This document shows, piece by piece, positions 26,871 to 32,520 of a DNA stretch of 64,000 nucleotides. Within the stretch, counting starts at the first letter, position 1. Every line of letters begins with the position of its first letter. The translations under genes and the position numbers were made by a program. The notes under the pieces were generated by a model that was not told where the DNA came from, did not search any database, and worked only from the letters and a program-made list of their open reading frames with translations. This DNA is from Maricaulis sp. (GTDB taxonomy: Bacteria; Pseudomonadota; Alphaproteobacteria; Caulobacterales; Maricaulaceae), in contig NZ_JASBRQ010000044.1 in NCBI RefSeq assembly GCF_030149425.1, forward strand, positions 1-64,000, written 5' to 3'.

Positions 26871-27608
26871 ATGACTATCAAAGATCGAATCCCGCAGCCC
26901 CGCTCGACATCCTGGAGGTCCGACTTGGATTCCCGCCCCTTCTGGCCCACCGCTTTTGAACGGCTGGGCATACATGACGCACAAGCCGAGGCCGCGTTGA
27001 TCGCCGCCGCCGAAATCCGCAGCGTCGCCAGCGGGTCGGTGATCATTGCGCAGGATGATGATGACGACATGGTCTTCATCATTCTTGACGGCGAAGCCCG
27101 GGTGGTCCTGCTGTCCGCCAGCGGTCAGGAAATCTGGATTGATGCCCTGCAAGCGGGCGCCGTGATCGGCGAATTGGCGGTCCTGACCGAACAACGCCGC
27201 ACCTCTGAGATCATCGCCGAGCAAGACTGCATGCTTGCCTGTTTTCCAGCCCGGGACTTTCTCGCCCTCTCAGCAGACCACGGCGCCCTCGGGCTTGCGC
27301 TGGCGCGGGTGCTCGCCCAGCGGGTTCATCATACCACCCAGCGCATGTTTGAACTCTCGGCACTGTCTGCGACCGGTCGGGTCTATGCCGAATTGCTGCG
27401 GATCTCGGAGCCATCAGAGAGCGGCGAAACGCGCTATATCCGCCCCAAACCGACCTGGACCGTGCTGGCACAAAAGGTCAATACCAGCCGCGAGACGGCC
27501 TCCCGCACGATCAGCGACCTGGAAAAGCGCGGCTTGCTACGGCGCCTCGATGACGGATTTGAACTCGTCGATCCGGATCAGCTCAGCCGACTCAGCTCGA
27601 CCAACTGA
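26871..27608 (+). CDS. Crp/Fnr family transcriptional regulator with cyclic-nucleotide-binding domain
   Basis: GELAVLTEQRRTSEI phosphate-binding cassette-like segment and WTVLAQKVNTSRETASRTISDLEKRGLLRR HTH. Confidence 0.9.
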   Translation: MTIKDRIPQPRSTSWRSDLDSRPFWPTAFERLGIHDAQAEAALIAAAEIRSVASGSVIIAQDDDDDMVFIILDGEARVVLLSASGQEIWIDALQAGAVIGELAVLTEQRRTSEIIAEQDCMLACFPARDFLALSADHGALGLALARVLAQRVHHTTQRMFELSALSATGRVYAELLRISEPSESGETRYIRPKPTWTVLAQKVNTSRETASRTISDLEKRGLLRRLDDGFELVDPDQLSRLSSTN

Positions 27609-29417
27609 GCAGCGATACATCTGGGCGATCAAAGAATCTGGCGCCACCGCCCGCAATGCGAAGAGCGGCAGTTTGGGTAAAGCCGTGTCGACCTCGGTGC
27701 GGCCGATATACTCACAGCGGAACTCGCCAGCCTGCTCCATAGCCAGGACCGCGGCGAACGCCTCGCTGACACAGATCGACCCCGGTACTGCGCAGGGTTC
27801 AATCCTCGCGGCAATTGCGACCTGGGCCCCGAACAGGGTGGGCCGTTTCTGCAACGGATCCTCGCCTTCATGAACCGGTCCATAATGCCCACCGATACGA
27901 ATATCGAGGCTGTCCGGAAGTTCGGCTGCGGCCAGATCAATCGCAGCAAAGGCCTCCCTCAACCGTGTCGCTGCCCTCGCCGCAGGCGCCGTCTGCTCGA
28001 AGGCGAGAAACAGACCATCACCCCAACTATCAGTATAGACCGGGCTGTCCTCAAGCTGGTCCACCTCGTCCACCAGACGCCGAAGAACTGTGTCGACAAA
28101 TGCAGGCACCCGGTCCTCGGCCACGCGGGAGGAGCCACTGATATCGATGAAGAGCATAGCCCGCATCACCGGACGAAACCCGTGCCCTATATCGGCATCA
28201 GAGCGCTTTGGCAGGTTTGATGAGGACTTCTGTCGCTTAAAGGGGATGACGGTCTGGTCCAGGCCGGCGCGGTGCCATTGGCCAGCATCATGCACCGTCC
28301 CAAACCCGCGCGCCGGATTGGCCCCAGGGTCGCTGACCAGGATTTGGTGCGGTTCCGTCGCCAACACTTCAGCCCGCATTCGCGCCAGCCCCATGGCCAC
28401 CCGGCTTGAGAAATTGAGCGTTTCACCGGAAATGATACGCCGGTCCGAGGTGACTTCAATAATCTGGGAGGCGGCATTCAGACAGGCTTCGCAGCGCTTG
28501 ATCCAGGGGCTGCCAAAGGGCCTGACCGAGCTCTCGATAAAGACACCAACCGGGACGGGAAGAACCACATTGAGCGAGCCGCCGCGGCGCAGGATGGCTT
28601 CGGCAATCAAGATATCTGCGCCGGCCGCAACCGCGCCGAACGCGGGACCGGCCGAAACCGCTTCCAGGGCCAAATCGATCTGCCGCACAAGCCGGGTCTC
28701 GGCCGCTTGGGATACCTCCCCCGGGGCCGAACCCAAAGGGAAGATATTCCCGGCAAAATGCACCGGCCGACCCGGCTGCACACCCGAAAAAATCTCCTGC
28801 TTGACGCCCAGCGCGTCGGCGATCAGGCGCAATTGCTGAAGGCTTGTTGCCAGAGCGATGGTATTCGAGGGATCGCAATCGCGCGCCGCACTTAGGGCCA
28901 GTCGCATGGCCCGCGTATCACCCAGCAGGAGATGCGCTTCGGCTTGGGTTGCACCGCGATAATAGGCCTCCTCAGGATCCGTCGCGGTACCGCCCAGGCT
29001 TTCATGCAGGACCCGGCGAGCCAACCTCTCGGAGCGAGGCTTGTCACCGGCGAGCAGATACATGCTGGCCGCGTTTATTCCCGGATAGTGACCACCGGTG
29101 ATCTCAAAAACGTCTTCATAGCGTTTGGCCGCCCGGCGGGCCTGGGCGGGAAAGGCGCTCGCCTCCGTCTCGAACGCTGAGGCCTTTTCAAGCCGCGCGC
29201 CCAGAGCGAGGCAGTCTTCGTCAAAATCAGCGCGATCCAGCTGGTATCGGCTGTACAGGCTTCGCGCACGCTCCAGGGCACCGGATTTCACGAGACACAG
29301 CACGGCTCTGTGGCGTAGCCAAAGATCGTCCGGCGCCCTGTCCAGCTGATCGAGACACTGGTCAAAGGCGGCGGCGAGATCACCCCGCTTGAAACTGTCT
29401 TCAATAAATTGCCGCAA
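27537..29417 (-). CDS. multidomain protein: TPR/DUF4071-like N-terminus, SLOG-like centre, class III nucleotide cyclase-like C-terminus
   Basis: KRYEDVFEITGGHYPGINAASMYLLAGD (DUF4071-like); FAGNI...AGADILIAEAILRRGGSLNVVLPVPVGVFIESSV (SLOG-like); LFIDISGSS and WGDGLFLAF (cyclase homology domain). Confidence 0.8.
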   Translation of the reverse strand: MRQFIEDSFKRGDLAAAFDQCLDQLDRAPDDLWLRHRAVLCLVKSGALERARSLYSRYQLDRADFDEDCLALGARLEKASAFETEASAFPAQARRAAKRYEDVFEITGGHYPGINAASMYLLAGDKPRSERLARRVLHESLGGTATDPEEAYYRGATQAEAHLLLGDTRAMRLALSAARDCDPSNTIALATSLQQLRLIADALGVKQEIFSGVQPGRPVHFAGNIFPLGSAPGEVSQAAETRLVRQIDLALEAVSAGPAFGAVAAGADILIAEAILRRGGSLNVVLPVPVGVFIESSVRPFGSPWIKRCEACLNAASQIIEVTSDRRIISGETLNFSSRVAMGLARMRAEVLATEPHQILVSDPGANPARGFGTVHDAGQWHRAGLDQTVIPFKRQKSSSNLPKRSDADIGHGFRPVMRAMLFIDISGSSRVAEDRVPAFVDTVLRRLVDEVDQLEDSPVYTDSWGDGLFLAFEQTAPAARAATRLREAFAAIDLAAAELPDSLDIRIGGHYGPVHEGEDPLQKRPTLFGAQVAIAARIEPCAVPGSICVSEAFAAVLAMEQAGEFRCEYIGRTEVDTALPKLPLFALRAVAPDSLIAQMYRCSVGRAESAELIRIDEFKSVIEAP

Positions 29418-29432
29418 ACTGGTCGAGTCCTT

Positions 29433-29460
29433 CTTCCGGGAGCTGGCGCGCTCCCGGAAG
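29433..29460 (-). other. hairpin in gap between unknown gene and cyclase gene
   Basis: Perfect 10-bp stem cttccgggag/ctcccggaag with 8-nt loop. Confidence 0.6.
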
Positions 29461-29475
29461 ACAGTCTAGCCCGAT

Positions 29476-30084
29476 TTACATCGGCGGGATGACATGGATT
29501 TTCGGATCGATGATCAAACGCGTCACCTGGTTGCCCGCATCCTGAGATGCCTGGACGAAGAGCGCGAACTCGTACTCGGCCGGTGCTGTGGCGGCGGCCG
29601 CATTGATCTGGAAGCTGTAGGGCTGGCGGCTCTCGCCATTCAGCGTCAGCCAGGAGAGCCCACAGAAGATTTCACCCGCATTGTCCGACTTGAACTTGAT
29701 GCGCGCCTCTTCAAACCCCCAGCCCGGCACGTGCATGTTGAAAATCATGCGCGTGGCGCCGCGAACATGCTGGTCGAAGGGACAGGGGTCGACTGCGCCA
29801 CAGGGCGTCCACATCCCGGCGAGGGCCGCGCCAACCGCGAGGCGGAGCGTGGCGGCATCGACGGCGCGGTATTCGTCAACGGTTTCGGCAAATATCATAA
29901 ATATCTGCGAGATCTGGGCATCGTCGAACGGATCGCGATTCATATCGCTGCCATTGATGACAACAAAACCATCAACGCCGCGAGCCACAAGGCTGATATG
30001 GGTGTGGTCCGGAGTGAAAGAACAGGCATCCGCCAGCCCCTCTTGCACCTTGGAACCGTCAAATGCATCACGAATGGAAGACAT
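29476..30084 (-). CDS. uncharacterised protein between TIR and cyclase genes
   Basis: 203 aa from MSSIRDAFDG; C-terminal half looks beta-rich; no confident family. Confidence 0.7.
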   Translation of the reverse strand: MSSIRDAFDGSKVQEGLADACSFTPDHTHISLVARGVDGFVVINGSDMNRDPFDDAQISQIFMIFAETVDEYRAVDAATLRLAVGAALAGMWTPCGAVDPCPFDQHVRGATRMIFNMHVPGWGFEEARIKFKSDNAGEIFCGLSWLTLNGESRQPYSFQINAAAATAPAEYEFALFVQASQDAGNQVTRLIIDPKIHVIPPM

Positions 30085-30117
30085 GGCAAAACCCCTCTTG
30101 CTTGCCCAAGTGATAGA

Positions 30118-30172
30118 GCCGGCCCGGCGGGCCGGCCCTGCGAAGACGGCTGCCATGGAGCCATGGCAGCCG
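30118..30172 (-). other. two tandem hairpins between TIR gene and uncharacterised gene
   Basis: gccggccc-ggc-gggccggc (30118-30136) and cggctgccatgg-ag-ccatggcagccg (30147-30172). Confidence 0.6.
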
Positions 30173-30182
30173 GAAGGAAGGA

Positions 30183-32228
30183 TTACTCGGCCGTGAGGTA
30201 GCCGGTTTCGGTCAGGGCACGGGCGCGCTCCAGCTCCGCTGCCGTATCGAGGCGGAGCTGGTCCTGCGAGGCATCGAGTGTATCGATCAGGACACGCCGA
30301 ACCTGTTGCGCGTCGGCGGCTTCCCCATTGCTCTCCAACAATTCGGCCAGAATGTTGGATGCCACCGCGAACATATAGGGCCCGCGCTCGATCTGGGTTG
30401 GCCAATCATCAGCGAGGCGTAGGGCGGAGAGCAGATTCTCCACCGCTTCCCGCGCGGATTCGACATCGCCCAGCGCGCGGAAAAGCTTTGCCTCGACCAG
30501 CGTCGCATAGAGACGCGTCGACTCAAAACTGGCCCCCTCGGCCGCCAACCAGGACGGATGCGCCATGAAGCGCGTTGCATCGAGATAGGCTGCGCGCGCA
30601 TCCTCCGGCCGCTCTGCAAGCAACAGCGCCCGGGTCAGGCGTAGTCGCTGCCGCACCGAAATCAAGCGCCAGAGCTGATTGTCCGGGTCATGGCCGACGA
30701 GAGCATCGGCCTCCATTGCTCCCGCTTCCAGAATCTGCACCGCCTGGGCGATATCCTCGGGCGAAGAACTTGTCTCATCCAGGATCAATAGCCGCGCCAC
30801 GGCATAGTCCGCCAGCATTGCATCACGCCGCATACGCCAGTCGCTGTCGAGCGCTTCGGCACTTTCATAAACGGCGATCTGCTGGCGCAGGGCGGCCATT
30901 GCCGCCTCGCGTCCATCGACGAACTCAGACACGCTGGCGAGCCAGCCCCAAGCGTCAGCGAGCTCATAGAGCGCCTGGCTTGAATCGGGCTGGGCATCGA
31001 GCAGAGCCTGAAACAATTGCAGGGAGGACCGGACGGATCGATGCGCCTCCTCGTAGCGGCGCTGCTGCAGGTACAGCGTGCCGAGATTGGAATAGGCGTA
31101 AGCAGCCTCGGCCTGGTATTCGAGATTGTCCTGATCGCTCTCAACCAGGGCCCCGGTCAGGTCGCGGTATTCCAGGAAACGGGCCTCTGCGACATCGAGC
31201 TCGCGCTGCCGCCAAGCAAAAAAGCCGACCCAATATGCGCTTTGGGAGTGCTCATAGATACGCGCTGGCTCATCGGGATCGACCGCGAGTATTCGCTGCG
31301 TTGCCGCATAGGCCGTCTGGAAGTGCTGGTATGCACTTTCAAGATTGCCCTGGGCTTCGTCTATTCGCCCGAGCAAATGGAAGGCTTGCGCCCTGCGCCC
31401 AAGCGAATCCGGAGACATTTCATTAGGCGGTTGAGCCGCGTAATAGTCGATAACCTTTGCCCCAACAGCGTCGAGAACTTCGAGCCGTCCCACGGGCGCC
31501 AGCCTGTCTGTCAGATCTTCCAGCATGAATTCAATCAAATCCTCTGCCTCGGCTTTGCGACGTTCGGCTTCGGACCGCGCGGTCGTCGCTAGAAACGTCA
31601 AGCCGCCCATTATTAGGGCCAGAGAAACCGAAATGACTGTGACGGCCGTCACGCGCTGCTGACGTCTTTGCAGGTCACGCTGGATAATTTGGTCGAGACG
31701 CAGATCGAGCAAACCACCGACGAGTTTGACGAGCGCCACCCGGCGGCCATCGCCTTTACGGCGGAAATCGGCACCAGCAGGCTCTGTCTCGCGCCCGTCG
31801 CGCATCGGCTCGAGGATGGCGGCAGGGTAGCATTCCCGGGTCGCAGGAAACCCGTTGCGCTCGGCATCCGGTTCGCCCTCGAGAATAGCGGTGATGATTT
31901 CGCCCTCGGGGTTGAGGTCACGAAACACCTCGATCTCGCGATTGACCCACTGCGAAGCGGCAGCGGCCGGAGAGCACAACACGATAAGGGTCTCGCTCGC
32001 CTGCAGGGCATCGCGCACGGAGGCCGACAAATCACCGCCCGCCGACAATTCGTCGCGATCGCGGAATATCCGGCCGACCTTGCGTGGTACTGGGCCCCGG
32101 CGACTGCCCTGGCCGACCAAGTGACGGGGAACCCGGTAGGTCTCAAGCCGGTTGTGAATCCAGCGCGCCCAGCGCTCATCGCTATGACTATAGGAAATGA
32201 ATGCGCGATAGTGTTTGGCCCCAGCCAT
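30183..32228 (-). CDS. TIR domain protein with transmembrane helix and TPR region
   Basis: AKHYRAFISYSHSDERWARWIHNRLE, RIFRDRDEL, SQWVNREIEVF; TM VTAVTVISVSLALIMGGLTFLATTA; TPR-like repeats after. Confidence 0.88.
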   Translation of the reverse strand: MAGAKHYRAFISYSHSDERWARWIHNRLETYRVPRHLVGQGSRRGPVPRKVGRIFRDRDELSAGGDLSASVRDALQASETLIVLCSPAAAASQWVNREIEVFRDLNPEGEIITAILEGEPDAERNGFPATRECYPAAILEPMRDGRETEPAGADFRRKGDGRRVALVKLVGGLLDLRLDQIIQRDLQRRQQRVTAVTVISVSLALIMGGLTFLATTARSEAERRKAEAEDLIEFMLEDLTDRLAPVGRLEVLDAVGAKVIDYYAAQPPNEMSPDSLGRRAQAFHLLGRIDEAQGNLESAYQHFQTAYAATQRILAVDPDEPARIYEHSQSAYWVGFFAWRQRELDVAEARFLEYRDLTGALVESDQDNLEYQAEAAYAYSNLGTLYLQQRRYEEAHRSVRSSLQLFQALLDAQPDSSQALYELADAWGWLASVSEFVDGREAAMAALRQQIAVYESAEALDSDWRMRRDAMLADYAVARLLILDETSSSPEDIAQAVQILEAGAMEADALVGHDPDNQLWRLISVRQRLRLTRALLLAERPEDARAAYLDATRFMAHPSWLAAEGASFESTRLYATLVEAKLFRALGDVESAREAVENLLSALRLADDWPTQIERGPYMFAVASNILAELLESNGEAADAQQVRRVLIDTLDASQDQLRLDTAAELERARALTETGYLTAE

Positions 32229-32479
32229 GACATGCCCCTCTTGCCCAAGGACATTCATATTCGGGCACACGCAGAGCGCGCGCAAGCTGCGGGTCGAAAG
32301 AAACCGCATGCCATCTCAGCTAGCACCGACAGGTTGGCCGGAGGCACACCAGGCAACAGAAGCGGGAGCGGCGGGACACGACACGGAGTTGGGGCTCCGC
32401 CTTGGGCAAGCTCGTATCCCGCCTGACCCCGCAGTCCAGTTGGATGTCTTGGGGCCACCCCGGATGCGGTAATAGGATA

Positions 32480-32520
32480 TTAGCTCAGCTAAGCCGGAGC
32501 GCGCGTGATCGCGATCACGC
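32480..32520. promoter_or_regulatory. two adjacent dyad-symmetric motifs, candidate operator (Crp/Fnr-like)
   Basis: ttagct-c-agctaa (32480-32492) and gcgtgatcgcgatcacgc (32503-32520), 18-bp perfect palindrome matching cGTGA-N6-TCACg. Confidence 0.4.

Follow-up and report, generated by a model that had tools for sequence, protein, structure and literature searches.

The locus described here raises the question of whether a TIR protein, a protein in which sensor domains are joined to a nucleotide cyclase, and a Crp-type regulator, all encoded side by side, are the parts of one signalling relay. The window, by which we mean the whole stretch of 64,000 nucleotides of Maricaulis sp. DNA that was analysed, had been read in a first-pass annotation as holding a relay in which a TIR product or TIR-gated state is sensed by a SLOG domain, the cyclase is controlled by that event and its output reaches the Crp protein. 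The genes and domains of such a relay, among them a likely SLOG-like domain, are present at the locus, and we regard the proposal as a good working model. As to whether a relay from the TIR protein through the sensor-cyclase to Crp, with a transcription switch of its own, is indeed what the locus encodes, we judge the chances to be about even. Its best supported parts are the link from the cyclase to Crp and the control by Crp of its own operon, and its least supported part is the step from the TIR protein to the sensor.

Gene content, sensor domains and the middle protein

The four open reading frames of the locus matched the first-pass annotation in all coordinates and strands. A three-gene operon encoding a TIR-TM-TPR protein of 681 amino acids (30183..32228, minus strand), a middle protein of 202 amino acids (29476..30084, minus strand) and a TPR-S/SLOG-like/class III nucleotide cyclase protein of 626 amino acids (27537..29417, minus strand; the sensor-cyclase) is convergent with the gene for a Crp/Fnr-family regulator (26871..27608, plus strand). 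The domain calls made earlier were also borne out, the SLOG-like one at the level of the predicted fold, but the earlier reading had overlooked the TPR-S domain, the candidate operators for Crp and what kind of protein the middle gene encodes. The cyclase and Crp coding sequences overlap tail to tail by 72 bp (27537..27608), and across Maricaulis (the window and its equivalents in loci L097-L116) this overlap is 12-72 bp; such a conserved arrangement may possibly provide antisense coupling.

That these genes would be conserved together in relatives was confirmed, since the TIR gene, middle gene and sensor-cyclase gene occur together in 17 of the 18 other Maricaulis genomes sampled and the set recurs across Alphaproteobacteria. 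Scanning GTDB genomes yielded 80 loci (L numbers), nearly all of them from Alphaproteobacteria, and in most of these, which belong mostly to other genera, a TIR and/or Crp gene adjoins the same sensor-cyclase gene, a co-occurrence that is far above chance. TIR genes were identified with our own TIR profile in 68 of the 80 loci, the 12 misses including several contig ends and at least two loci (L126 and L131) that carry other, Pfam-recognised TIR genes.

The N-terminal part of the sensor-cyclase contains a TPR-S sensor domain (residues 18-119; 29061..29366, minus strand), which matched PF20308 at 43.1 bits relative to a cut-off of 27.6. The part between TPR-S and the cyclase (residues 205-405; 28203..28805, minus strand) matched no Pfam family, even at E 5. 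An AF2 model made from an alignment of 50 sequences had a mean pLDDT of 93.3, and its best Foldseek match was DprA (E 4.2e-4, probability 1.0), with further matches that include Moco-carrier protein, LOG-type and TRPM N-terminal domains, all of which are SLOG members. The loop motif G-A-x-A-A-G-[AS]-D shows little or no variation among the 50 aligned members. The earlier SLOG call thus has support at the level of the predicted fold, although the TM scores to these structures are 0.40-0.48 and so below 0.5, and we consider the domain likely to be a SLOG-like Rossmannoid domain.

On its own, the window's middle protein had no family match; its relatives match PF20301 (pNTSase1), the one in L110 above the cut-off. 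Both PF20308 and PF20301 presumably owe their names to a survey of immune systems in prokaryotes published in 2020. The AF2 model of the middle protein (pLDDT 88) is a beta-sandwich for which the Foldseek match at rank 1 was SO1698 of Shewanella (E 1e-5, target-normalised TM 0.67); searches at the level of sequence found neither a PDB relative nor a match to SO1698/DUF1888. SO1698 cleaves itself at its Asp-Pro, and the solved mutants of SO1698 include D116A and P117A. In 18 very divergent middle proteins an Asp-Pro pair forms the only invariant columns, and in the window this pair is Asp193-Pro194, nine residues from the end. The middle protein therefore resembles SO1698 in its modelled fold and in having Asp-Pro near its C-terminus, but differs from it in lacking a sequence-level match, in having some 100 additional residues at its N-terminus and in that its cleavage is a prediction. 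The middle protein is probably self-cleaving. The predicted SO1698/PixA-like fold does not suggest a nucleotide synthetase; the name of PF20301, "predicted novel nucleotide synthetase", appears unfit for such a fold and renaming may be needed. In three Kordiimonas-type loci (L114 9250-9897, L118 426-1091 and L119 9322-9975) the place of the middle gene is taken by a gene for a His-rich protein, apparently unrelated and without the Asp-Pro motif.

Pairing of the cyclase with Crp and candidate operators

The class III cyclase domain (27687..28160, minus strand) was identified by Pfam (Guanylate_cyc, PF00211, 1.6e-11), by alignments and by PDB matches, which were to guanylyl cyclases and Ma1120. 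It keeps the metal-type residues Asp425 and Asp467 and the catalytic Arg538, which makes cyclase activity plausible, and the concern that the cyclase and the TIR domain might both be inactive is answered by the catalytic residues, which are kept in the alignments of both. Since the positions of the Lys and Asp typical of adenylate cyclases and of the transition-state Asn are replaced, cAMP should not be assumed to be the product. The Crp protein consists of a cyclic-nucleotide-binding domain (cNMP_binding, PF00027, 4.1e-19) and a DNA-binding domain (HTH_Crp_2, PF13545, 2.9e-11), and its phosphate-binding-cassette stretch, GELAVLTEQRRTSE, includes Glu101 and Arg110; a Thr-Thr pair is present in the C-helix and RETxSR in the recognition helix. 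In the genome of the window there was no other Crp-like regulator at E<=1e-5, only a frame of 592 amino acids with a weakly similar cNMP-binding region.

To relate the two proteins, we compared the 50 loci in which a Crp or cNMP-binding protein is encoded next to the cyclase, 28 of them with an intact cyclase and 22 with a broken one, the latter including L146 and L172, which an automatic alignment called intact and which were scored as broken because Asp-like remnants stay and the WGD motif and Arg are gone. Both the Glu and the Arg of the Crp cassette are kept in 28/28 loci with an intact cyclase versus 0/22 with a broken one, a contrast that represents one or two evolutionary events, because on the tree the loci with a broken cyclase fall into one group (support 70/91) or at most two, such that the independence assumed by an exact test is overstated. 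Many independent co-losses of cyclase and Crp pocket were ruled out by the same tree. Three further loci with an intact cyclase (L185-L187) have a cassette that agrees, and one with a broken cyclase (L189) has a Crp without the cassette Glu. Taken with its basis in one or two events, this match makes the passage of the cyclase output to Crp the most strongly upheld step of the relay as first proposed; that the cyclase product would be the ligand of the adjacent Crp is strongly supported by the sequence comparison.

A reading in which these genes are conserved neighbours without a relay, with Crp answering to another ligand and the cyclase product acting elsewhere, would account for the active-looking cyclases of Crp-less loci, of which there are about 20 of the Phenylobacterium/Sphingomonas type, and for the Crps without a binding cassette that are still found beside system genes with Crp-type sites. 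However, it does not sit well with the 28/28 versus 0/22 agreement between cyclase and pocket integrity, with the cNMP-binding partner being kept in L117 and L128 even as a lone domain, without an HTH, beside the cyclase, or with the replacement of the system in one Maricaulis by another Crp-cyclase pair (see below). We consider this reading very improbable.

Sites to which Crp might bind were sought with the Crp-type palindrome YGTGA-N6-TCACR, and the window has two of them at the operon. The first, the perfect palindrome CGTGATCGCGATCACG (32504..32519), precedes the start of the TIR gene by about 280 bp, and a palindrome is present upstream of the operon in 13/13 Maricaulis loci, at 168-432 bp from the TIR ORF in the 12 besides the window. 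The second, TGTGACGGCCGTCACG (31638..31653), lies inside the coding sequence of the TIR gene, where the TM helix begins, and an equivalent is present in all 27 TIR genes, from several orders, whose peptide reads V-[TM]-x-[VI]-T at this position. All 27 of these genes spell the peptide as GTG-A..-...-.TC-AC[AG], the last Thr codon always being ACA or ACG, as opposed to 3.9 genes expected from each gene's own codon usage; the possibility that the palindrome is a by-product of a V-T-x-V-T peptide was rejected by this test. An intragenic operator that is kept at the level of codons across several orders would be unusual in itself.

Supporting a connection of these sites with Crp was that 28/46 loci with a Crp have a site <=500 bp ahead of a system gene, versus 2/34 loci without one (p=3e-7). 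The whole genome of the window contains 13 such palindromes, two of which are in this operon; the other 11 are mostly within ORFs, with no obvious regulon among them. Given the palindromes upstream of and within the TIR gene, Crp is probably a dedicated autoregulator of its operon, acting via these candidate sites, the conservation of which strongly supports such control. The persistence of sites where Crp has lost the ligand pocket suggests that such Crps have retained DNA binding. Ten loci (L122, L149, L153, L157, L158, L160, L162, L170, L174 and L176) have a gene for a trypsin-like peptidase that adjoins the middle gene and is divergent from the sensor-cyclase gene. In the trypsin-gene loci the intragenic site is absent, and all of those in which the region of the middle gene is complete (9/9) carry a site 60-77 bp ahead of that gene.

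The TIR protein and the direction of signalling

The TIR protein has its TIR domain at residues 10-119 (Pfam TIR_2, 2.4e-14, and ThsB_TIR, 1.6e-9; the latter, PF08937, at 38.5 bits with a cut-off of 21.2), one TM helix at about residues 193-216 as judged by hydropathy, and TPRs recognised by Pfam C-terminal to this helix. The catalytic-type, NADase-type Glu (Glu98 in the window) is kept in 65/65 alignable TIRs. The TIR partners of the same sensor-cyclase vary and include TIR-TPR proteins, short TIRs (L120), which occur in Novosphingobium-type loci, a TIR-LprI protein and a TIR-CHASE2 protein; the last two are encoded beside the sensor-cyclase gene in L126 (8718-9875) and L131 (7679-9691), respectively.

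In the proposed relay, a membrane-anchored TIR enzyme, gated by a TPR region that is probably outside the membrane, would cleave NAD+ and its product would be an ADP-ribose-type signal. TIR-made ADP-ribose signals have been proposed to act in conflict systems (PMC8195603, PMC7159879). The TPR-S/SLOG-like part would sense the signal and switch on the class III cyclase, and the cyclic nucleotide would be bound by the Crp encoded tail to tail beside it, which in turn would bind the palindromes that lie upstream of the TIR gene and within it, and would thereby control the operon, including the probably self-cleaving middle protein. We infer the reading of a TIR product by the TPR-S or SLOG-like part because the TIR linkage is near-universal and several different TIRs pair with the same sensor-cyclase; the TPR-S domain is as good a candidate for the receptor of this product as the SLOG-like one. 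A more specific form of the relay is a two-messenger cascade, in which an NAD-derived signal of the TIR acts on the cyclase by allostery and a possibly non-cAMP cyclic nucleotide acts on a dedicated Crp with paired operators, one of them fixed in the TIR coding sequence, the self-cleaving Asp-Pro protein being one output. We put this fuller version forward tentatively, as possible but somewhat doubtful.

The flow could also be reversed, with the TPR-S/SLOG-cyclase as the primary sensor, the cyclic nucleotide and Crp controlling the operon, and the TIR as an NAD-depleting effector that stays restrained until its induction. TIR NADases often act as toxic effectors, as in Thoeris and the TIRs of CBASS, and the Crp-type sites upstream of and within the TIR gene itself, together with the invariant active-site Glu, are in keeping with such a role. 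However, the TIR is N-terminal to a TM helix and a large, sensor-like C-terminal region that is swapped for CHASE2 or LprI elsewhere, which is the layout of a receptor, and TPR-S has been proposed as a sensor of NAD-derived signals; as such, we regard a reversed flow as unlikely.

Finally, the TIR protein and the sensor-cyclase might communicate by direct TPR-TPR contact at the membrane, with no diffusible NAD-derived messenger and with the rest of the relay unchanged. TPR-type helical repeats are indeed present in both proteins, but a contact of this kind would leave the catalytic Glu in 65/65 TIRs and the G-A-x-AAG-[AS]-D loop of the 50 aligned SLOG-like members to be explained, and the same sensor-cyclase is paired in L120 and L131 with TIRs that have no recognised TPRs. 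This alternative therefore seems quite improbable to us, and the diffusible signal of the relay remains our preferred reading of the step.

Relation to known systems and distribution

PADLOC called no system at the locus and gave only partial domain matches: its whole-protein ThsB model matched the TIR protein at only 0.038, its PycC model matched the cyclase domain alone (1.7e-8, 32 bits), and its PycTIR model matched only via the cNMP-binding part. The locus is like Thoeris in pairing a TIR enzyme with a domain that is likely of the SLOG fold and in a ThsB_TIR match above the cut-off, but here the partners of the SLOG-like domain in its protein are TPR-S and a cyclase, and neither the SIR2 domain nor the membrane effector of a ThsA was recognised there by Pfam or PADLOC; in addition, there is an extra Crp and the TIR is membrane-anchored with TPRs. 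As in Pycsar, a cyclase is encoded beside a cyclic-nucleotide-binding protein; unlike in Pycsar, that receptor is a Crp transcription factor with an HTH and not an effector whose cNMP-binding domain is joined to TIR or TM, the cyclase carries a sensor of its own at the N-terminus, and the TIR is separate and apparently upstream. With the TPR-S systems (PF20308; PF20301) the locus shares the TPR-S domain and a middle protein whose relatives match PF20301, but here TPR-S is part of one protein with a SLOG-like domain and a cyclase, and the locus adds a dedicated Crp together with Crp-type sites that are conserved. The cNMP-binding Crp, the RETxSR helix and the TGTGA-N6-TCACA-type sites resemble CRP/cAMP with a class III adenylate cyclase, whereas the regulator here appears dedicated and local, with few genomic sites, one of them intragenic, and the substrate and transition-state positions of the cyclase are atypical. 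By analogy, its upstream half would operate in the manner of Thoeris and its downstream half in that of Pycsar or cAMP-CRP, but the system belongs to neither Thoeris nor Pycsar. In the literature searched, nothing specific was found on TPR-S, on Maricaulis and TIR, or on TIR with SLOG and cyclase; the set may already be listed in the 2020 J. Bacteriol. survey, and the first-pass view of it as undescribed is tentative.

TIR/SLOG and cyclase/cNMP-binding modules are known as separate branches of immune signalling, and here they are apparently in series, in a relay that would end in a transcription factor and not in a killing effector. The system lends itself to a direct test of the sensing of TIR products by TPR-S and SLOG-like domains, and bears on the ways in which gene regulation can be driven by nucleotide signals of the immune type. 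In Maricaulis the locus is on the chromosome at a syntenic place, and cultured strains such as M. maris DSM 4734 have it.

Whether the locus is dedicated to anti-phage defence rather than to general signalling is a separate matter, since under such a role the signal could flow in either direction. Parts of the TIR, SLOG, cyclase and trypsin-like kinds are typical of conflict systems (PMC7159879), and the distribution is patchy at the family level and above: in a class-wide sample, 37 of 385 genomes had a match at E<=1e-10, of which about two dozen look like clear relatives. Two distant relatives (L178 and L184) adjoin STAND-WD40 genes. Against an anti-phage role, PADLOC calls no system and 17 of 18 species of the genus keep the locus at one syntenic place, which in the Maricaulis loci inspected has a DUF3108 gene on one side and an alkyl-sulfatase/M14-peptidase pair on the other. 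Moreover, the sole Maricaulis without the system among the 18 sampled (G010) has at this place (L214, G010:C17, 1966-5625) an AsnC/Lrp-type gene, OsmC, a canonical Crp and a membrane class III cyclase, that is, OsmC and an ordinary Crp-cyclase pair. We therefore think a dedicated anti-phage function rather unlikely. The membrane cyclase of G010, which was not found in 12 other Maricaulis genomes searched, is encoded on the same strand as its Crp and downstream of it, and both are unrelated to those of the window system. Among the Phenylobacterium/Sphingomonas-type loci, L147 (13704-14954) and 17 similar loci are without a Crp and have a PEP-CTERM protein encoded near the TIR.
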